Source of the DNA: Micromonospora sp. HM5-17
GTDB taxonomy: Bacteria > Actinomycetota > Actinomycetes > Mycobacteriales > Micromonosporaceae
Direction of reading: 5' to 3'
Assembly (NCBI RefSeq): GCF_003762835.1
Contig: NZ_RJWA01000002.1
Coordinates: forward strand, 372,001-436,000
Length of the DNA: 64,000 nucleotides
The notes beneath the pieces were generated by a model. It saw nothing but the letters and a program-made list of their open reading frames with translations. It ran no database searches and was not told the origin of the DNA. Position numbers and translations under genes: made by a program. Shown here piece after piece: positions 28,292-50,859 of the stretch (positions within the stretch are counted from its first letter, which is position 1; the number at the start of each line of letters is the position of its first letter).

Positions 28292-29329
28292 ATGGCTGGT
28301 GGTGCCGCCGGGAAGGGGGAGCCCCTCGAGGTCGAGGTGGCCGGACGCACCGTGCGGCTGAGCAGCCCGGACCGGGTCTACTTCCCGCAGCGGGGCTTCA
28401 CCAAGAAGGACATGGTCGACTACTACCTGGCGGTCGGCGACGGGATCCTGCGGGCCCTGCTGCACCGGCCGACGGCGTTGCAGCGCTTCCCCGAGGGGAT
28501 CGAGGGGGAGATGTTCTACCAGAAGCGGGTGCCGGCCCGGGGCGTGCCACCGTGGCTCGAGACCGCGACGATCCGGTTCCCGAGCGGCCGGAGCGCCGAC
28601 GAGCTCTGCCCGGCCGACCTCGCCCACGTCGTGTGGGCCGCCCAGATGGGGACAGTCGTCTTCCACCCGTGGCCGGTGCGCCGCGCGGACGTCGACCGAC
28701 CGGACGAGCTGCGGATCGATCTCGACCCGCAGCCCGGCACCGACTTCGCCGACGCCGTGGAGGCGGCCGGCGAGGTGCGGGCGCTGCTCGACGAGGTGGG
28801 GGCGGTCGGCTGGCCGAAGACCTCCGGCGGCCGGGGCGTCCACGTCTACCTGCGGATCCAGCCCCGCTGGACGTTCACCGAGGTACGCCGGGCCGTGATC
28901 GCCCTCGCCCGGGAGGTCGAACGCCGCCGTCCCGAGCTGGTCACCACCTCCTGGTGGAAGGAGGAGCGAGGCGCGAAGGTCTTCCTCGACTACAACCAGA
29001 TGGCCCGGGACCGGACCATCGCCTGTGCCTACTCGCTGCGGGCCAACGCCCGGGCCACCGTCTCCACGCCGGTCACCTGGGACGAGCTGCCCGACGTCGA
29101 GCCCAACGACTTCGACCTGCGGACCGTGCCGGAGCGGTTCGCGAGGATCGGTGACCCGCACGCCGGGATCGACGACGCGCCGTGGGACATCACCCCCCTG
29201 TTGGAGTGGGCCGACCGCGACGACCGGGACGGTCGGGGCGGCGACCTGCCGTACCCGCCCGACCACCCGAAGATGCCGGGGGAGCCGAAGCGGGTGCAGC
29301 CGTCCCGGGACCGCGACCGCCGGGGCTGA
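28292..29329 (+). CDS. LigD-type NHEJ polymerase domain protein
   Basis: This 345-aa freestanding archaeo-eukaryotic-primase-like polymerase (PolDom) has SSPDRVYFPQRGFTKKDMVDYY at the N-terminus, the metal-binding Asp143-x-Asp145 in LRIDLDPQPG, SGGRGVHVYL and the third Asp in KVFLDYNQMARDRTIACAYS. In bacterial non-homologous end joining this activity fills gaps and adds ribonucleotides at breaks held by Ku. Here it is a separate gene, with a separate ligase at 34.8 kb; no ku gene is in the window. Confidence 0.92.
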   Translation: MAGGAAGKGEPLEVEVAGRTVRLSSPDRVYFPQRGFTKKDMVDYYLAVGDGILRALLHRPTALQRFPEGIEGEMFYQKRVPARGVPPWLETATIRFPSGRSADELCPADLAHVVWAAQMGTVVFHPWPVRRADVDRPDELRIDLDPQPGTDFADAVEAAGEVRALLDEVGAVGWPKTSGGRGVHVYLRIQPRWTFTEVRRAVIALAREVERRRPELVTTSWWKEERGAKVFLDYNQMARDRTIACAYSLRANARATVSTPVTWDELPDVEPNDFDLRTVPERFARIGDPHAGIDDAPWDITPLLEWADRDDRDGRGGDLPYPPDHPKMPGEPKRVQPSRDRDRRG

Positions 29330-34829: not shown

Positions 34830-35927
34830 TCAGGCGGTGGCCGCCGGATCGCCGCGCAGGACCTGGTCGACGTCGAAACGGACCGGGCGGTCGAGCTGGT
34901 CGTACGTGCAGGAGCGCGGCTGGCGGTCGGGTCGCCACCGGACGAACTGCGCGGTGTGCCGGAACCGATTCCCCTCCATCGCGTCGTAACCGACCTCGGC
35001 GACCAGCTCGGGGCGGATCGGTTCCCACTCCAGGCTCTTGGTCCCCGTCCACCGGCTCGGCGCGCCCGGGATCCGCTGTGCGCCGGCGTGGTCGCCGTGC
35101 AGCCACGGGTGCGTGGCGGCCACGTCCGCGCCCCGGTACGCCGCCAACTCGTCCAGCAGCTCCCGGCGCCGCCTGGCGGTGAAGGACGCCGACACGCCGA
35201 CGTGGTGGAGCGTCCCCGCCTCGTCGTAGAGCCCGAGCAGCAGCGAGCCGACCACCGGGCCGGACCTGTGCCAGCGGAAGCCGGCCACCACCACGTCCGC
35301 GGTCCGGGTGTGCTTCACCTTGAACATGAGCCGCTTTCCGGGCTCGTACGGGATCTCGGCGGGCTTGGCGACCAGCCCGTCCAGCCCGGCCCCCTCGAAG
35401 ATCTCGAACCAGCGGCGGGCGGTCGCCAGGTCGTTGGTGATCTGGGTGACGTGCACCGGCGGCGCCACCCCGTCGAGCGCCGCCTCGAGCCGGGCCCGGC
35501 GCCGGGCGTACGGCTGGTCGAGCAGTGCCTCGTCGTCGAGGGCGAGCAGGTCGAAGGCGACGAAGTCGGCCGGGGTTGTCTCGGCCAGCAGGGCGACCCG
35601 GGAGGCGGCCGGGTGGATGCGCTGGCTCAGCAGCTCGAAGTCGAGCCGGGGCTGCCCGTCCGGGTTGTTTCGACGGATCACGATCAGCTCGCCGTCGACG
35701 ACGCAGCGGGTCGGCACCTGCGCGCGGGCCTGGGCGACCACCTCGGGGAAGTAGCGGGTCAGGGTCTTGCCGCCCCGGCTGGTCAGCTCGACCTCGTCGC
35801 CGTCCCGGAAGACGATGCAGCGGAAGCCGTCCCACTTCGGCTCGTACGTCATCCCCTCGGCGGTGGGGATCTCCGGGACGCTTCTGGCCAGCATCGGCTC
35901 GACCGGCGGGTTGATCGGCAGTTTCAC
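34830..35927 (-). CDS. ATP-dependent DNA ligase, LigC/LigD-ligase type
   Basis: This 365-aa ligase has the adenylated Lys31 in EPKWDGFR, then TSRGGKTLTRYFPE (motif I region), DGELIV (motif III), VAFDLLALDDE, GLDGLVAKP (motif IV) and MFKVKHTRTADVVV (motif V), followed by an OB fold (about 225-365). It seals nicks after end joining or repair. It is a single ligase module without polymerase or nuclease domains, complementing the freestanding polymerase at 28.3 kb. GTG start. Confidence 0.93.
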   Translation of the reverse strand: MKLPINPPVEPMLARSVPEIPTAEGMTYEPKWDGFRCIVFRDGDEVELTSRGGKTLTRYFPEVVAQARAQVPTRCVVDGELIVIRRNNPDGQPRLDFELLSQRIHPAASRVALLAETTPADFVAFDLLALDDEALLDQPYARRRARLEAALDGVAPPVHVTQITNDLATARRWFEIFEGAGLDGLVAKPAEIPYEPGKRLMFKVKHTRTADVVVAGFRWHRSGPVVGSLLLGLYDEAGTLHHVGVSASFTARRRRELLDELAAYRGADVAATHPWLHGDHAGAQRIPGAPSRWTGTKSLEWEPIRPELVAEVGYDAMEGNRFRHTAQFVRWRPDRQPRSCTYDQLDRPVRFDVDQVLRGDPAATA

Positions 35928-44353: not shown

Positions 44354-45331
44354 TCAGCGCCGACGGCTGCTCAGGGTCAGCGCACGGTGCAACAGCCGGC
44401 CGTCGCCGAGCCGGGCCCGGAGCCGGCGCTCCAGGCCGGCGATCGGGATCAGGTTCTGCGGCGCCCGGGGGTCCTTGTACGCGGTCGAGGCGAACCGGGG
44501 CAGGGTCACCAGCGAGAGGTCGGCGAGTGCGATCGCCTCCCGCTCCGCCAGGTCGGCCGAGCACTCCACCCGGACGATCCCGGCCCAGGGCCCGCGGCCG
44601 GACCCGGGCAGCCGCAGGTACCAGGAGTAGCCGCCCCAGGCGGTGCCGAGCCGGAAGACCGGGGTGCGCTGCCGGGCACCGAGCCCGGTCACCACCGCGC
44701 TCAGCCGGGCGTCGAGGTACTGGCTGTGCTGCGTCTTGATGTAGCCGAGCGTCCGGGGCAGCTGCCGCCGGTTGCGTAGCGGCCCGTCCACCACCAGCAG
44801 GTCGTCGTCGTCCCGAACCGCGGCGGAGACCTTGACCTCCAACGCGGTCAGCGGCCCCTGGACGGCGGCCGGCAGCTTGCTCAGCTCGCCGGTGCCGCTG
44901 AGCCGGTGCACCGGGTACCGGATCTGCCCGGCGAGGATGTCCTCGGCCGACGGGCTGGCCGTGAAGAGTCCCCGCTCGACCTCCGCGCCGGCCAGCTCCG
45001 CCGCGCCCCGGCGCAGGTCGCACCGGACCACCCCGGCGGCGTACGACGCGGCGAGCCCCGGGTACGACCCGCCGTCCGGCTCCTCGATCCAGAGGCTGGC
45101 GTCGATCCGGCGTACGCCGTCGACCAGCAGGACGACGTGCGGCGGCTCCACCCCGTCCGGTGCGGCCAGCGGTCGCCACTGGTCCGGAGGCAGCTCCACC
45201 CCGGCCTCGACCTGCGCACTGCTCGGGGTAGCCGGCCCCGGCGCCGCCTCGAACGACGCTCCGTACGTCGGGTCCCAGGCGTCGACGTGGACTCGGGGTC
45301 GTCCGGCCGCCCGGACGGGGGCCGCGCTCAC
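44354..45331 (-). CDS. nurA: NurA-like 5'-3' nuclease
   Basis: This 325-aa protein matches the NurA nuclease pattern. The first metal Asp71 lies in VVLLVDGVRRIDASLW, a conserved Glu165 in LTALEVKVSA, the second Asp182 in LLVVDGPLRNRRQLP, then LGYIKTQHSQYL, the NurA-type G[YV][VI]K block. The C-terminus DPRAPQNLIPIAGLERRLRARLGD fits the family end. In archaea NurA is loaded by the HerA translocase to resect DNA ends with Mre11-Rad50. Here the start overlaps the sbcC stop (GTGA), and herA, sbcD and sbcC precede it. I consider the assignment good but it rests on motif recall. Confidence 0.75.
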   Translation of the reverse strand: MSAAPVRAAGRPRVHVDAWDPTYGASFEAAPGPATPSSAQVEAGVELPPDQWRPLAAPDGVEPPHVVLLVDGVRRIDASLWIEEPDGGSYPGLAASYAAGVVRCDLRRGAAELAGAEVERGLFTASPSAEDILAGQIRYPVHRLSGTGELSKLPAAVQGPLTALEVKVSAAVRDDDDLLVVDGPLRNRRQLPRTLGYIKTQHSQYLDARLSAVVTGLGARQRTPVFRLGTAWGGYSWYLRLPGSGRGPWAGIVRVECSADLAEREAIALADLSLVTLPRFASTAYKDPRAPQNLIPIAGLERRLRARLGDGRLLHRALTLSSRRR

Positions 45332-47811
45332 CGGCCGACCCGCTCGATGTGGGAGCCGCGGGCGTCCTTGCGGACCTCGAACCGCACGGGTATCCGTTCG
45401 GCGAGGGCCGGGACGTGGGTCACCACCCCGACCATGCGGTCGCCCCGGGCCGCCAGGTTCTCCAGGGTGGTGGCGACGGTGTCGAGCGTGGCGGCGTCGA
45501 GGGTGCCGAACCCCTCGTCGAGCATGATCGACTCCAGGCTGGCGGTGGTGGTCGACATCCCGGCGAGCTGCTCGGAGAGGGCCAGGGCCAGCGCCAGCGA
45601 CACCTGGAAGGTCTCCCCGCCGGACAGCGTCCGTACGGTGCGGCGCAGGCCGGCGTCGTGGTGGTCGACGACGAAGAACTCACCCTTGTCGTGGCCCAGG
45701 TCGTACTGCCCACCGGTGAGGTCGCGCAGGATCCGCGAGGCACCGTCGACCAGCAGGTCCAGCGCCTCGGCGAGCAGCCACCGCTCGAAGTTGTTCGCCC
45801 GCAGGTGGCCGGCGAGCGTCCGGGCGACCCGCGCCTCGCGCTCGTGGCCGGCGCGCTGCGCGACCAGGTCCTGGGCCTGCGCGCGGCGCTCGACGAGCCG
45901 GCGGTGCTCCGCCTCGGCCCGTTCCCGGGCCACCGCGGCCAGCCGGACCGGGTCGTCGTCGCCGGCCGGCGCGGGAAGCCCGGCGGCGGTGAAGAGCGCG
46001 CCGATCCGGGCGGCGACCTCCTCGGTCTCGGCGTGCGCCGCGCCGACCGCCGCGACCGCGGCATCCCGGCCCGCGCGGCGCTCGTCGGCGGCCTGGGCCG
46101 CCCACGCCCGGAGCCCCGCCCAGGCGGCGGCGACATCGTCCCGGTCGGCGGCCGGGGGACCGAACCGGGCGACCCCGTCCCGTACCCGGTCGAAGACCCG
46201 CCAGACGTCGCGGAGCCGTTCCTCGGCGGCCTCCACCCCGTAGCGGGCCCGGCGGGCCGCCTCCCGGGCGGCCCGGACCGCGGCACCGGCGGCCTCCAGG
46301 TCGCGGCGGAGCCCCGCGATCACCTCCAGGTCACGTCGCAGGGCCGCCGGCCCGGGCGAGTCGGCCAGCTCGGCGTCCAACTCGGCCAGTCGCGCGGTGA
46401 GCTGGTCGTGCCGGGCCCGGGCGGTGTCCAGGGTGCGTTCCAGGTCGCGGGCGGCCCGCTCCCGCTCGGTGACGACCCGGTTCGCCGCGTCGGCGGCGGC
46501 CCGGGCGGCCTTGCCCGCCGCCTCGGCGGCGGGGACCGCCGACCCCGCCGGGAGCGCCGGCACCTCGGCCACCGGCTGCGCGCAGACCGGACAGTGGGCG
46601 CCGGGGCGCAGGTGGGCGCGGAGCGCGGCGGCCCGGTCCGCGGCCTGCGCCTCCTGGTACGCCGTCCGCGCCGCCTCCAGCTCCTGGGCGGCCCGCTCGG
46701 CGTCGGCCCGGGCCGCCTCGACGGCCGCCACGGCGACCCGGTGCTGGCGCTCCGCCTCGGCCAGCGCCTCGGCCAGCGCGGTGGCCTCGCCGGCGAGCCG
46801 GTCCCGCTCGGCGTGCTGCTGCTGGCGCAGCCGCAGCGCCGCCGGATCGCCGGCGGCGGCGAGCTCGCCCCGGAGCTTCTCCTCGCGTTCCTCGGCGAGC
46901 GCCACCGCGGCGTCGGCCTCGTCCGCCTCGGTACGGGCCTGGGCCAGCGCCGCGGCGACCGCGTCCAGGTCGGCCGGGGGTCGGACGGCCGCCAGCTCGG
47001 CGAGCTCGGCGTCGAGGGTGGCCAGCGCGGCCTCGGCGTCGGCCACGGCCGCCCGGGCACGTCGGAGCTCCGGTACGGCGGCGTCGACGTCGGCGGCGAG
47101 CGCCGTCATCCTGGTGACCCGCTCCTCCGCGTCCGCCAGCGCCGCGTCGTCGATCCCGGTGAGCCCGTCGAGGACCCGATCGACCGCGGCGAGTGCCGCC
47201 TCGGCCCGGCCCGCCCGGGCGGTCGCCAGCTTCTGGATCTCCTCGTAGACGCCGAGCCCGAGCAGGTTGACCAGGATCTGCTGCCGGGTGGCCGGCTTGG
47301 CGTGCAGGAAGTCGGCGAACTGCCCCTGTGGCAGCAGCACGCAGCTGGTGAACTGGTCGTACGGCAGGCCGACCGCCTCCAGCACCGCCTCGTCCATCTC
47401 GGCCGGGGTGCCGGCGAGCACCTCACCGAGGTCGTCCGGGGTGAGCCCGGTGTCGAGCTTCGTCACGTCGAAGCCCTGCGGCATCAGTTGCAGTCCGGCG
47501 TTGCTGGTCTTCACCGTGCCCCGGCTGTCCCGCCGTACGACCCGGGTGGCGACGTACCGGGCGCCGGCCGACTCGAAGACCAGCCGGACCCGGGCCTCGG
47601 CGGCCGACGGGGCGAGGGCGTTCGTGAGACCCCGGGTGCCGCCCCAGCGGGGCACGGTGCCGTAGAGGGCGAAGCAGATCGCGTCGAGGACGCTGGACTT
47701 GCCGGACCCGGTCGGGCCGACCAGGGCGAAGAAGTCGGCGTCGGTGAAGTCGACGGTGGTGGCCTGCCGGAAGGCGGTGAAGCCGGCCAGATCGAGGCGG
47801 AGCGGACGCAC
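45328..47811 (-). CDS. sbcC: SbcC/Rad50-type ATPase
   Basis: This 827-aa SMC-like protein has Walker A G32-PTGSGKS39, a long coiled coil (about 170-650, Ala/Glu/Arg-rich), the zinc hook Cys407-P-V-Cys410 near its middle, the signature LSGGETFQVSLALALAL and Walker B ESIMLDEGFGTLD at the C-terminus. With SbcD it forms the complex that opens hairpins and processes double-strand ends. The GTG start shares one base with the sbcD stop (TAGTG). A much longer open frame upstream is a shadow over sbcD. Confidence 0.95.
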   Translation of the reverse strand: MRPLRLDLAGFTAFRQATTVDFTDADFFALVGPTGSGKSSVLDAICFALYGTVPRWGGTRGLTNALAPSAAEARVRLVFESAGARYVATRVVRRDSRGTVKTSNAGLQLMPQGFDVTKLDTGLTPDDLGEVLAGTPAEMDEAVLEAVGLPYDQFTSCVLLPQGQFADFLHAKPATRQQILVNLLGLGVYEEIQKLATARAGRAEAALAAVDRVLDGLTGIDDAALADAEERVTRMTALAADVDAAVPELRRARAAVADAEAALATLDAELAELAAVRPPADLDAVAAALAQARTEADEADAAVALAEEREEKLRGELAAAGDPAALRLRQQQHAERDRLAGEATALAEALAEAERQHRVAVAAVEAARADAERAAQELEAARTAYQEAQAADRAAALRAHLRPGAHCPVCAQPVAEVPALPAGSAVPAAEAAGKAARAAADAANRVVTERERAARDLERTLDTARARHDQLTARLAELDAELADSPGPAALRRDLEVIAGLRRDLEAAGAAVRAAREAARRARYGVEAAEERLRDVWRVFDRVRDGVARFGPPAADRDDVAAAWAGLRAWAAQAADERRAGRDAAVAAVGAAHAETEEVAARIGALFTAAGLPAPAGDDDPVRLAAVARERAEAEHRRLVERRAQAQDLVAQRAGHEREARVARTLAGHLRANNFERWLLAEALDLLVDGASRILRDLTGGQYDLGHDKGEFFVVDHHDAGLRRTVRTLSGGETFQVSLALALALSEQLAGMSTTTASLESIMLDEGFGTLDAATLDTVATTLENLAARGDRMVGVVTHVPALAERIPVRFEVRKDARGSHIERVGR

Positions 47812-48956
47812 TACCTCGTCGCCTCCTCGTAGAGTTCGTCGAACAGCTCCCGGACCCCGTCGTCGGCGTGCCCCCGGCTGTCCAGGTAGTCGGCGAAGAG
47901 CTCCCGGGGTGACCGCCCGGCGCGTCGGACGGTCCGCGCGGTTCCCGGATTCGGCAGCAGCTCCGGGTCGATCCGGACCTCCAGCGCGCGGGGGAGGAGT
48001 TCCTGCACCTCCTCGCGGAGTCCGGCCCGCGGCGCCTCCCGCACGTAGACCCGCAGCCAGGCGGTCTGGTCGGCCAGCTCGGCCAGCTCGGCCAGCGTCC
48101 CGCGTACGGTGCGCAGCGGCGCGGCGGCGGTGATGGGCACCTCCCGTACCGTGGCGGCGCGGTGGGTGCCCACCTCGACGATGGTGACCGACGGGGTGTT
48201 CTCCTCCTCGCCGAAGTCGACCGCGAGTGGGCTGCCGCTGTACCGGATCGGGCAGGGACCGGAGACGGTCTGCGCCCGGTGCAGGTGCCCGAGGGCGACG
48301 TAGTGGGCGGTGCTCGGGAAGACCGTCGCCGGTACCGCGTAGTTGAGGACGGTGTGCGCCTCCCGCTCGCCGCCTCCGGTACGGGCGCCGGCCACGGTGA
48401 GGTGGGCGGTGACCAGGTGCACCCGGTCGGCACCGTCGAAGCCCTCGGCGAGCCGACGGAGCAGCCGTCCGACGTGGTCGGCGTACGTCTGCACCGCCTC
48501 GGCGGCGGTCAGCTCGTACATCTCGACGGCCCGGACGGCGTACCGCTGGGAGAGGAACGGCAGCGCGATCAGCCGCCACGGCTCGCCGTCGGCGGTGGTG
48601 CCGTCCAGGACGTGGTCGGCGGGACTGTCCCGGACGCTGCCCCGCAGCACCACCCCGGCCGCCTCGGCCCACGGCCGCAGCGCGTCCAGGGCCGGACCGT
48701 TGTCGTGGTTGCCGCCGATCGCCACCACCTGGGCCCCGGTGCGGCGCAGCGCGGTCAGCGCCCGGGTGACCAGCCGGGTCGCCTCCGGTGTGGGCGCGGC
48801 GGTGTCGTAGAGGTCCCCGGCGACGATGACCAGGTCCGGGGACTCGGCCTGGGCGACCTCGACCACCTGGGCGAGCGCGTCCCGCTGCTCGCCGATCCGG
48901 GACTGTCCCTTGAGGACCTTCCCGATGTGCCAGTCGGAGGTGTGGAGGATCTTCAC
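47811..48956 (-). CDS. sbcD: SbcD/Mre11-type nuclease
   Basis: This 381-aa calcineurin-like phosphoesterase has the metal motifs HTSDWHIG (Asp8, His10), VAGDLYD (Asp48), GGNHD (Asn83-His84), LVTAHLTVAG and LGHLHRAQ. The capping domain and C-terminal helices that bind SbcC follow (about 280-381). It is the nuclease subunit of SbcCD. It starts 16 bp after the HerA-like gene and overlaps sbcC by one base. Confidence 0.95.
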   Translation of the reverse strand: MKILHTSDWHIGKVLKGQSRIGEQRDALAQVVEVAQAESPDLVIVAGDLYDTAAPTPEATRLVTRALTALRRTGAQVVAIGGNHDNGPALDALRPWAEAAGVVLRGSVRDSPADHVLDGTTADGEPWRLIALPFLSQRYAVRAVEMYELTAAEAVQTYADHVGRLLRRLAEGFDGADRVHLVTAHLTVAGARTGGGEREAHTVLNYAVPATVFPSTAHYVALGHLHRAQTVSGPCPIRYSGSPLAVDFGEEENTPSVTIVEVGTHRAATVREVPITAAAPLRTVRGTLAELAELADQTAWLRVYVREAPRAGLREEVQELLPRALEVRIDPELLPNPGTARTVRRAGRSPRELFADYLDSRGHADDGVRELFDELYEEATR

Positions 48957-48972
48957 AGGCCGTCCCTGAGAG

Positions 48973-50730
48973 TCAGAAGGGGATGTCGTCGTCGGAGAGC
49001 GACCCGGAGCGCGAGCCGACCACGGCGAACGGGTCGGCGGCCTGGGTGATCGACCGGAGCGTCCCGGAGGGGGCCGCGCCGGCCTCCGACACCCGGGTCG
49101 CCCAGGCCGGGAACGGGAAGTCCAGGCAGAGCGGGACCGGGATGTCGGGCTGGTTGACGAACATGGTGCCGGGCCGGGCCAGCAGCGCCCGCTGCCGCTG
49201 GGCGGCGGGGAGGAAGCCGTACTCCGGGCGGGACGCCTCGGCGGGGTCGAGCCGGCCGACCACCCGGATCGCCGAGTTGGTCACGATCCGCCGTTCCACC
49301 TCGCTCGCGGTCTGCTGCGCCCCGATCAGGATCACCCCGAGCGAGCGGCCCCGCTCGGCGATGTCGAGCAGCACCTCCTTGATCGGGGAGGAGCCCTCGC
49401 GGGGGGCGTACTTGTTGAGCTCGTCGAGGACGACGAAGAGCAACGGCTTGGCCGTGCCGGCCTTCTCCTTCCGCTCGAACTCGCTCCTGAGCGTCACGCC
49501 GACCACGAACCGCTGCGCCCGGTCCGGCAGGTTGTGCAGGTCGACCACGGTCACCTGGGCGCTCTCCGCGGTGTTGACCCGGTGGGGCCGGCGGGTGGCG
49601 AGATCGCCGCGGATCAGCCGGGCCAGGTCCTTCTTGCTGCCGATCAGCCGCCGGGCGAAGGCGTTGACGGTGCCGGTGTTGACCGCGCTGCCGGCCCAGT
49701 CCGACCGGGTCTCCTCGTCGGTGAGCCGCTCGACGACGAAGTCGACCAGCTCGGGGTAGGAGTGGATGCGGGTGCCGTCGATACTCACCCCGCCGTCGGC
49801 CGGCTGCGCGTACCGGGCCAGGTGGGCGGTGACCGAGTGCACCACCATCGTGTACTGCTGGCGTTCGTCGTCGGCGTCGGCGAAGACGTACGGGAGCAGC
49901 CGGTCGGCGCAGAACTCGGTGAGCGTCCAGTAGAAGCTGTCGACCCCGGCGAGCCGGCTGCTCACGTCCGGGGTGCCGGAGGAGTCCCCGGCCCGCGGCG
50001 GCGCGTAGACCCGTACGTCCGGGAAGGCGCCGGCGGTCAGCCCGAGCTTCGCGTACGTCTCGACGGTCGTGGCGTCGAGCCGGCTGTTCGGGTGGTCGAG
50101 GAAGAGCAGGTCCTCGCCCTTGACGTTGAAGATCAGCGCCTTGGCGTTGACCGTGTCGCCGCCCAGGACGCCGGAGCGGAAGACCGAGTACAGCAGGAAG
50201 GTGGCGAAGCTGGTCTTGGTCGCCACCCCGGAGATGCCGGAGATCGAGACGTGCGCGCCGCGGGTGCCGTCCAGGAAGTCGGCGTTCAGGTAGACCGGTA
50301 CGCCGTCCCGGCCGATCCCCATCGGCACCCGCCGCTCCATCCGGTCGAAGTGCAGCGCGGCCGACCGGACGTCGCCCTCGGCCCGGTAGACCGGGGCCCC
50401 GGGGGAGGGCGGGACGTAGAGCTCCGGGTCTACCCGGGTGGTGGTGATCTCGGCCGCCTCCTGCACCAGGGCCGGCAGCGTGCCGTCGGCGATGGCGAAG
50501 ACGTCGGAGTCGAACTGCGCGCCCTCGTGCCGGGCCCGGACCTGGGTGACCACTCCGGCGATGGTGACCGGCTCACGGTCCGGCAGTTCGCGTCGCGTCA
50601 CCACCACGTCGTCGAGCTGGAGGTAGCTGCCGGGGGTGACCGCGGTCCAGAACTGGAGCGGGGTGGCGTCGGCGGTGCCGAGCACCCGGCCGACCACGGC
50701 GTCGGACGCGTCCGGGTCGATGTCGGTCAC
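48973..50730 (-). CDS. herA: HerA-like hexameric DNA translocase
   Basis: This 585-aa ATPase has an N-terminal HAS-barrel (about 10-100: VVGRVLGT, TPLQFWTAV, YLQLDDVVV) and a FtsK/HerA-type RecA core. The P-loop is G165-ISGVATK172-TS, in which the Gly normally before the Lys is Thr. Walker B is LLFVVLDELNKYAP (Asp436-Glu437), followed by IAERGRSLGVILIGAQQTASEVE, the HerA sensor region. HerA pumps DNA for NurA and Mre11-Rad50 in archaea. It is first in the four-gene operon; GAGGGGG precedes the GTG start. Confidence 0.85.
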   Translation of the reverse strand: MTDIDPDASDAVVGRVLGTADATPLQFWTAVTPGSYLQLDDVVVTRRELPDREPVTIAGVVTQVRARHEGAQFDSDVFAIADGTLPALVQEAAEITTTRVDPELYVPPSPGAPVYRAEGDVRSAALHFDRMERRVPMGIGRDGVPVYLNADFLDGTRGAHVSISGISGVATKTSFATFLLYSVFRSGVLGGDTVNAKALIFNVKGEDLLFLDHPNSRLDATTVETYAKLGLTAGAFPDVRVYAPPRAGDSSGTPDVSSRLAGVDSFYWTLTEFCADRLLPYVFADADDERQQYTMVVHSVTAHLARYAQPADGGVSIDGTRIHSYPELVDFVVERLTDEETRSDWAGSAVNTGTVNAFARRLIGSKKDLARLIRGDLATRRPHRVNTAESAQVTVVDLHNLPDRAQRFVVGVTLRSEFERKEKAGTAKPLLFVVLDELNKYAPREGSSPIKEVLLDIAERGRSLGVILIGAQQTASEVERRIVTNSAIRVVGRLDPAEASRPEYGFLPAAQRQRALLARPGTMFVNQPDIPVPLCLDFPFPAWATRVSEAGAAPSGTLRSITQAADPFAVVGSRSGSLSDDDIPF

Positions 50731-50859
50731 CGGCGCGGCCCCCTCGTCGGTCGGGACCCCGGCAGGGCGGGAATCTGGTCACGACACACGAGTCGCATCC
50801 TGCCTCACCGGTACGACAGCCGCCACGCGACGCGGCGGCCGGGGACGTCCCGGTCACAC

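Follow-up and report, generated by a model that had tools for sequence, protein, structure and literature searches.

The stretch of DNA analyzed here (hereafter, the window) comprises 64,000 nucleotides from the genome of the actinomycete Micromonospora sp. HM5-17 (contig NZ_RJWA01000002.1, positions 372,001 to 436,000; G000:C12:372001-436000 of a 6.17-Mb assembly, to which all counts for the host's own genome refer) and encodes, on its minus strand, four closely spaced genes, herA, sbcD, sbcC and nurA, the first of which specifies a DNA translocase whose C-terminus has the form of the C-terminal tip of a single-stranded DNA-binding protein (SSB). In the order of their succession on this strand, these are herA (48973..50730), which codes for a 585-amino-acid translocase of the hexameric Deinococcus radiodurans type, with a HAS barrel and a RecA-like motor, recognized by its match to 7f6d_B; sbcD (47811..48956), for an Mre11-type nuclease of 381 amino acids, recognized by the TIGR00619 profile and its motifs; sbcC (45328..47811), for a Rad50-type ATPase of 827 amino acids, recognized by its domains and the zinc-hook CPVC at 407; and nurA (44354..45331), for a bacterial-type NurA nuclease of 325 amino acids that matches 7f6d_H and, in the Foldseek search, 7f6d_G. 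An earlier reading of the same DNA from its letters and open reading frames (hereafter, the sequence-only reading) described four coupled genes with a gap of 16 bp and overlaps of 1 bp and 4 bp, and this layout holds provided that the GTG starts are real; the identities that it gave to the four products are likewise borne out, by homology to solved bacterial proteins and by family profiles.

Judged by sequence, nothing sets SbcD and SbcC apart from the other members of their families. SbcD scores 177 bits against the NCBIfam sbcd profile (TIGR00619; cut-off 77.65) and contains the motifs DWHIG, GDLYD, GNHD and GHLH, and SbcC combines AAA_23 and SbcC Walker B domains with a single CxxC, the CPVC at 407, its score against the full-length NCBIfam profile, 255.9 bits, falling under the cut-off of 478.5. 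Pfam and NCBIfam by themselves name neither the HerA nor the NurA of the window above cut-off, and the closest solved counterpart of the pair is the D. radiodurans NurA-HerA complex (7F6D). The resemblance of HerA to D. radiodurans HerA (DrHerA; 7f6d_B, E 2.2e-150, residues 9-550 of 585) extends along the full length and includes the unusual Walker A sequence GISGVATKTS; a HerA profile matches the 7F6D chain with an E-value of 1.2e-178 in a search of Protein Data Bank (PDB) sequences, and the window protein is 94% identical to the HerA of Plantactinospora mayteni, by which measure the host would probably be a Plantactinospora. The residues required for catalysis and translocation could be mapped from printed alignments, the reference residues being those that are mutated or called catalytic in PMC9960219, and the mapped residues are kept. 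Thus, K172/T173 of Walker A, D436/E437 of Walker B, R444 and R501 of the window HerA correspond to K175/T176, D487/E488, R495 and R552 of DrHerA, and D220 of the latter to D207, with the two DNA-translocation arginines, R444 and R501, invariant in 19 HerA rows.

NurA is more divergent (E 7.7e-19 against 7f6d_H in the phmmer comparison), and here a profile of 62 homologues and the predicted structure carry the assignment. Among PDB sequences, the profile matches 7f6d_H with an E-value of 1.4e-57 and the Thermotoga protein TM1739 (1zup), which has been named tmNurA (PMC9960219), with an E-value of 1e-19. An AlphaFold2 prediction of NurA from 59 sequences (mean pLDDT 92.2) has the RNase H-like fold and recovers the same two proteins by structure, 7f6d_G best (E 1.1e-17, TM 0.66), followed by 1zup (E 4.4e-14, TM 0.70). 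The motifs that the sequence-only reading had picked out are present, namely, D71, D182 and GYIK with K199, and D71, D182, K199 and R289 are invariant in the 62 aligned homologues; D71, K199 and R289 correspond to the catalytic D53, K201 and R309 of D. radiodurans NurA (DrNurA). Mutation of D53, K201 or R309 of DrNurA, or of K175, D487/E488, R495 or R552 of DrHerA, abolishes the nuclease or the resection activity (PMC9960219). In addition, W19 of NurA does not vary across 20 rows, and a strand is predicted at 13-16; these may be the counterpart of the N-terminal strand, W8 and pin-like motif of DrNurA, the alignment stopping short of the DrNurA N-terminus.

These comparisons do not bear out the view, taken in the sequence-only reading, that the set is of archaeal type: the solved relatives found (7F6D and TM1739) are bacterial. 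Archaeal NurA is absent from the PDB profile matches up to an E-value of 10, which consist of 7f6d, 1zup and one unrelated chain, and from the fold matches listed (50 of 540), and no archaeal HerA appears among the PDB profile matches at E 0.001. The structure prediction proposed in the same reading thus matches NurA, through 7f6d_G and 1zup, and finds no archaeal NurA among the fold matches listed; the comparison with Pfam NurA, proposed alongside it, leaves the window protein itself below threshold (E 0.1; 12.5 against 21 bits), with 21 of the 62 homologues matching at 0.01. An archaeal origin of NurA was accordingly considered and rejected, neither sequence nor fold supporting it. The archaeal herA-mre11-rad50-nurA cluster (PMC12977600) shares all four functions with the operon described here, but the NurA of the window is of the bacterial type.

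To determine how far the four genes belong together, we used the 61 nearest genomes, a draw of 296 genomes spread evenly over the class Actinomycetes, and one of 246 spread evenly over the phylum Actinomycetota; beyond this phylum, the material surveyed consisted of plasmid, phage and viral records only. NurA was found in 39 of the 61 nearest genomes, including 36 of the 37 from the same family and 3 of the 24 from other families of the order. In the class draw, HerA is present in 17 and NurA in 18 of the 296 genomes, with 17 common to both, and in the phylum draw, HerA is present in 75 and NurA in 62 of the 246, with 61 shared; the four-gene set is, therefore, often encountered in the phylum beyond the class Actinomycetes. 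Of the genomes that encode NurA, 61 of 62 in the phylum and 17 of 18 in the class also encode HerA, so that in neither draw does the fourth gene show the independence from herA that the sequence-only reading had named as evidence against its proposal. In the single exception in the class (G340), NurA is only a fragment and HerA is missing from the stretch read; its locus (L148; G340:C159:16556-16917) shows two NurA fragments, with HerA not found in the 14 kb read, and these fragments are probably a decayed copy. The lone NurA without HerA in the phylum (G460) matches weakly (E 1.3e-6) and is interrupted by an internal stop. Conversely, of the 14 phylum genomes with HerA and without NurA, 12 belong to one family (f69) and carry a divergent HerA, and in 2 a contig ends beside herA. 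In the 59 genomes in which both genes could be placed, herA and nurA lie within 300 bp of each other in 33, within 7 kb in 20, farther apart in 3 and on different contigs in 3.

Gene order was scored at 20 loci of relatives, 80 named Micromonosporaceae loci, 20 class loci, 40 phylum loci and 3 records of the plasmid collection, all picked for holding HerA or NurA, so that these counts inform on linkage and not on presence. Of the 20 relatives, 19 show herA-sbcD-sbcC-nurA (the other being interrupted by a contig end), as do 70 of the 80 named loci (the remaining 10 are cut short where a contig ends), and because of this recurrence the arrangement goes beyond chance. The same order is seen at 19 of the 20 class loci, the exception being G340. 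A homologue of the RibD-like neighbor is found at 76 of the 80 named loci; the operon occupies a stable locus in Micromonosporaceae. In one relative (L022; G007), nurA is split over two reading frames. The expectation that NurA is annotated as hypothetical in most genomes holds for one relative, where nurA is given as 'hypothetical protein'. Among the 40 phylum loci, 11 have herA-sbcD-sbcC-nurA and 18 have nurA-herA-sbcD-sbcC, so that the four genes, in either order, are together at 29 of the 40 and in all 3 plasmid-collection records; six others are cut by contig ends (L159, L163, L166, L168, L174, L186), and at three (L153-L155) herA is alone in the stretch, with NurA at a distance of 14-18 kb in two of these genomes and on a separate contig in the other. 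The nurA-first order of these 18 loci is like that of the same bacterial four-gene set in Oceanithermus profundus, nurA-hepA-sbcD-sbcC (PMC5448004), whereas in the window nurA comes last. The two remaining loci (L191 and L192), both of family f69, contain a divergent nurA-herA pair without sbcCD.

These data bear on whether the four proteins act together. HerA-NurA and SbcCD might merely be co-transcribed and carry out separate reactions, SbcCD, for instance, cleaving hairpins; the absence of sbcCD from both f69 loci read, as well as the treatment of the nurA-herA operon of D. radiodurans as a pair (PMC9960219), would fit such a division. However, both gene orders keep sbcD-sbcC beside herA or nurA, and archaeal Mre11 binds HerA (PMC2288612), and we consider this explanation rather unlikely. 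The four proteins may function here as one complex or machine.

The operon as such is a widespread set; its new part, which goes beyond what the sequence-only reading had observed, is a HerA motor with an SSB-like tail. The protein ends in SLSDDDIPF-stop, the codons for the tip, DDDIPF, occupying positions 48976..48993 of the minus strand and the stop codon positions 48973-48975. In Escherichia coli, the C-terminal hexapeptide DDDIPF of SSB (SSB-Ct) is the hub through which this protein docks its partners (PMC5872125), and one of these, RecO, binds SSB-Ct with a resulting change in RecOR assembly (PMC7913777). The tip of HerA is the identical hexapeptide, located at the extreme C-terminus after an apparently disordered linker, but it sits on a protein of the hexameric DNA translocase type, in a host whose own SSBs end in DDEPPF. 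Residues 557-585 of HerA have pLDDT below 50 in its AlphaFold2 prediction (19 sequences; mean pLDDT 76), as a flexible tail would. The tip appears to distinguish the window protein from DrHerA, which was compared to residue 604 of 618. A different non-SSB protein, reported to have an SSB-like C-terminal motif, is DdrB of Deinococcus, which is a single-stranded DNA-annealing protein (PMC3834827).

The tip is strictly conserved. At the 80 named Micromonosporaceae loci, HerA ends in DDDIPF in 77 cases and in the variants DDEIPF, EDEIPF and GDEIPF in the other 3; over the 81 sequences that include the window, the linker ahead of the tip takes 43 forms of 3-8 residues and all three stop codons are used. 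Close relatedness explains part of the agreement among Micromonosporaceae, and for this reason, wider comparisons across the phylum were employed. A terminal PF is present in 39 of the 40 HerA rows from Actinomycetes, where the tips other than that of the window's family are DDDPPPF, DDIPPF and similar, and in 7 of the 41 rows from outside this class; on the 81-row HerA tree, which omits 3 of 83 loci (two without HerA and one with a fragment), this label requires 4 changes. A comparison of SSB and HerA ends in 12 Actinomycetes genomes gave D[DE]PPF for the best SSB and a terminal PF for HerA in all 12, and among nine genomes from outside the class, six SSBs end in PF, as do three HerAs, all within those six. 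The motif is also rare. In the host's own genome, [DE][DE][DE]IPF-stop occurs at one place, herA, and the looser pattern [DE][DE]xPF at six, three of which end in TGG, which is not a stop, such that the true ends are two ssb genes and herA; the reversed control of the looser search gives three places. Translated in six frames, the 2,572,668 bases of fetched loci, mostly herA neighborhoods that hold no ssb loci, contain 102 [DE][DE]xPF ends in HerA and 0 elsewhere.

Given this form and its position, we propose that the tip of HerA may dock SSB partners. It could, alternatively, be an acidic mimic of DNA that acts within the protein or the complex, closing the HerA channel in an autoinhibitory fashion or touching SbcC or NurA, in which case the likeness to SSB would be due to convergence. 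The extension does belong to the motor and is predicted to be disordered, and since in most lineages outside Actinomycetes HerA ends in a DPFEGL-like sequence, the region apparently serves some purpose even where it lacks the form of an SSB tip. Acidity alone, however, leaves the fixed terminal PF unexplained; moreover, the motif is limited to the two SSBs and HerA in the own genome, and the other Actinomycetes HerAs drift to DDxPPF, which is the SSB form of those genomes. An intramolecular role thus appears doubtful to us. The DPFEGL-like ends, present in many HerAs from outside Actinomycetes (L153-L168, L170-L190), match a DPFAVV stretch that lies ahead of the tip in the window protein.

The reading that we prefer, and to which we give a probability of about 0.5, is that these genes form a chromosomal operon for the repair of double-strand breaks in which an SSB-tailed HerA docks SSB partners at the site of resection. 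The broken end would be bound, tethered and cleaned by SbcC-SbcD, and a hexamer of HerA would drive the duplex into a dimer of NurA; cutting by NurA, mainly of the 5' strand, would leave a 3' tail for RecA. Such predominant cutting of the 5' strand, with a 3' tail left, has been measured for D. radiodurans NurA-HerA (PMC9960219), and by analogy with this system the window proteins are predicted to be active enzymes that form a 6:2 HerA-NurA complex and perform ATP-dependent 5' resection. The six SSB-type tips of the HerA ring, carried on flexible linkers, would dock SSB partners, with RecO as the first candidate, so that RecA-loading or restart factors would arrive together with the resection machine. 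In archaea, SSB and HerA-NurA influence each other (PMC8910471). More tentatively, and at odds that we put somewhat below even, the HerA ring might be a second SSB hub, bound to the DNA end, that brings in RecO or other partners before or without SSB itself and so couples resection to RecA loading.

Several observations weigh against this proposal. D. radiodurans without nurA-herA was more, and not less, resistant to ultraviolet light and mitomycin C (PMC9960219), and the HerA-NurA of Thermococcus kodakarensis cuts both strands, in which its authors see a sign against resection (PMC12977600). The tip is absent from 34 of the 41 HerA rows outside Actinomycetes and is therefore not part of the core machine; within the class, the exception is the HerA of a Streptomyces plasmid, which ends in PPY, and in 3 of the nine genomes from outside the class SSB has the PF end and HerA lacks it. 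The SSB-like motif of DdrB is dispensable for radioresistance (PMC3834827). Finally, the acidic patch through which DrHerA binds NurA (D78, E80, D81) is mostly changed in the window protein, where only D76 is kept and F78 and A79 replace E80 and D81. Because the patch residues align poorly beyond Deinococcus (PMC9960219), however, we do not regard the patch as a defining feature. A further difference from D. radiodurans is that the window pair is joined to sbcD-sbcC.

The main rival of the repair proposal is a role in defense, whereby HerA-NurA and SbcCD would degrade invading linear or circular DNA in the manner of other HerA-nuclease pairs; the cutting of both strands by the T. kodakarensis enzymes (PMC12977600) favors such a role. 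The set does travel on plasmids. Among 72,556 plasmid records, 6 contain HerA, although one of these, an 11.85-Mb Nonomuraea record, is evidently a chromosome. A 451-kb linear Streptomyces plasmid (L193; NZ_CP134205.1, 411049-428200) has the four-gene set beside matches to the Wadjet type II components JetA2, JetB2 and JetC2, and a conjugative cyanobacterial plasmid (L194; AP018315.1, 44976-51976) carries nurA-herA-sbcD-sbcC. In addition, a weaker fold match of NurA, the fourth among the matches listed, is a chain of TdpAB, which we take to be an antiphage complex. However, the near-universal presence of the set in Micromonosporaceae (36 of 37 genomes), next to the RibD-like gene at nearly all loci, is unlike the distribution of a patchy island gene; PADLOC gives NurA no match up to an E-value of 1 and HerA only weak ones, the best being mad8 (E 3.6e-9), and the presence of SbcCD and of enzymes of non-homologous end joining (NHEJ) nearby weakly favors repair. 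On balance, defense strikes us as quite unlikely to be the principal function. In the Streptomyces plasmid, a restriction-type helicase gene also adjoins the set and HerA ends in DEPPY, not PPF, and in the cyanobacterial plasmid, nurA and herA are annotated as hypothetical. Of 50,697 phage records, 2 gave a match, at approximately 25% identity, and the viral contigs yielded 50 pattern matches, none of them a relative.

The sequence-only reading also held that the operon coexists with AdnAB- or RecBCD-type resection and with NHEJ enzymes, and this is confirmed for an AdnAB-type pair elsewhere in the own genome (G000:C23) and for two NHEJ enzymes within the window, a LigD primase-polymerase domain protein (28292-29329, plus strand) and an ATP-dependent DNA ligase (34830-35927, minus strand), which are separate genes and not fused to each other. 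Because the genome has the AdnAB-type pair and the window these LigD-type enzymes, HerA-NurA-SbcCD would be an additional route of end processing.

Bacterial NurA-HerA (PMC9960219) and its association with an adjoining sbcD-sbcC in Oceanithermus (PMC5448004) are already published, and the actinobacterial range reported here goes beyond Deinococcus-Thermus, the range given in the available text of the published work. In the open-licence literature, we found neither an actinobacterial NurA-HerA-SbcCD set nor HerA under SSB-like tails. Part of the interest lies in how bacteria that lack RecBCD-type chi control hand resection over to RecA loading, an open problem in the field. Iyer and colleagues (2004) reportedly surveyed HerA neighborhoods and may mention bacteria. 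If HerA is indeed a second SSB hub, a single machine would link resection with RecA loading in a phylum already equipped with AdnAB. A motor bearing an SSB docking tag also allows a test at one residue, the terminal phenylalanine, F585. What bacterial NurA-HerA does in vivo is disputed (PMC9960219, PMC12977600).

Upstream of herA, at 50796..50818 on the minus strand (G000:C12:422796-422818), there is a promoter-like element, TGTCGTAC-N8-CAGGATG, recognized by its conservation among upstream regions. In the general form TGTCGTAC-N8-CANNATG, it is present with at least 11 of the 13 specified bases in 75 of 79 upstream regions (78 of the 80 named loci plus the window, two having been dropped), 51 of them exact, compared with 2 of 1580 shuffles. 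With up to 2 mismatches, it occurs at 266 places in the own genome (control 82); because of this frequency, the element is not specific by itself and its significance rests on conservation. Compared with the RecA-independent damage promoter RecA-NDp of PafBC, tTGTCRgtg-8 nt-TannnT (PMC5656591), it has TGTCR and the same distance between the halves, but YAY stands in place of gtg, and in 78 of the 79 regions the first base of the second half is C, not T. A full RecA-NDp promoter was therefore rejected, the element being at most RecA-NDp-like, and since it keeps TGTCR and the spacing and not the rest, control of the operon by DNA damage through this element is only a guess. LexA box patterns gave 3 cases among the 79 upstream regions (LexA1 in 2, LexA in 1) and none in the window, and a LexA box ahead of herA was likewise rejected. 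The canonical RecA-NDp with up to 1 mismatch is found at 16 places in the own genome (control 3), none of them exact. Among the frequent, and possibly chance, matches to the herA element is a one-mismatch copy located just before ssb (L237; G000:C1:340014-340036).

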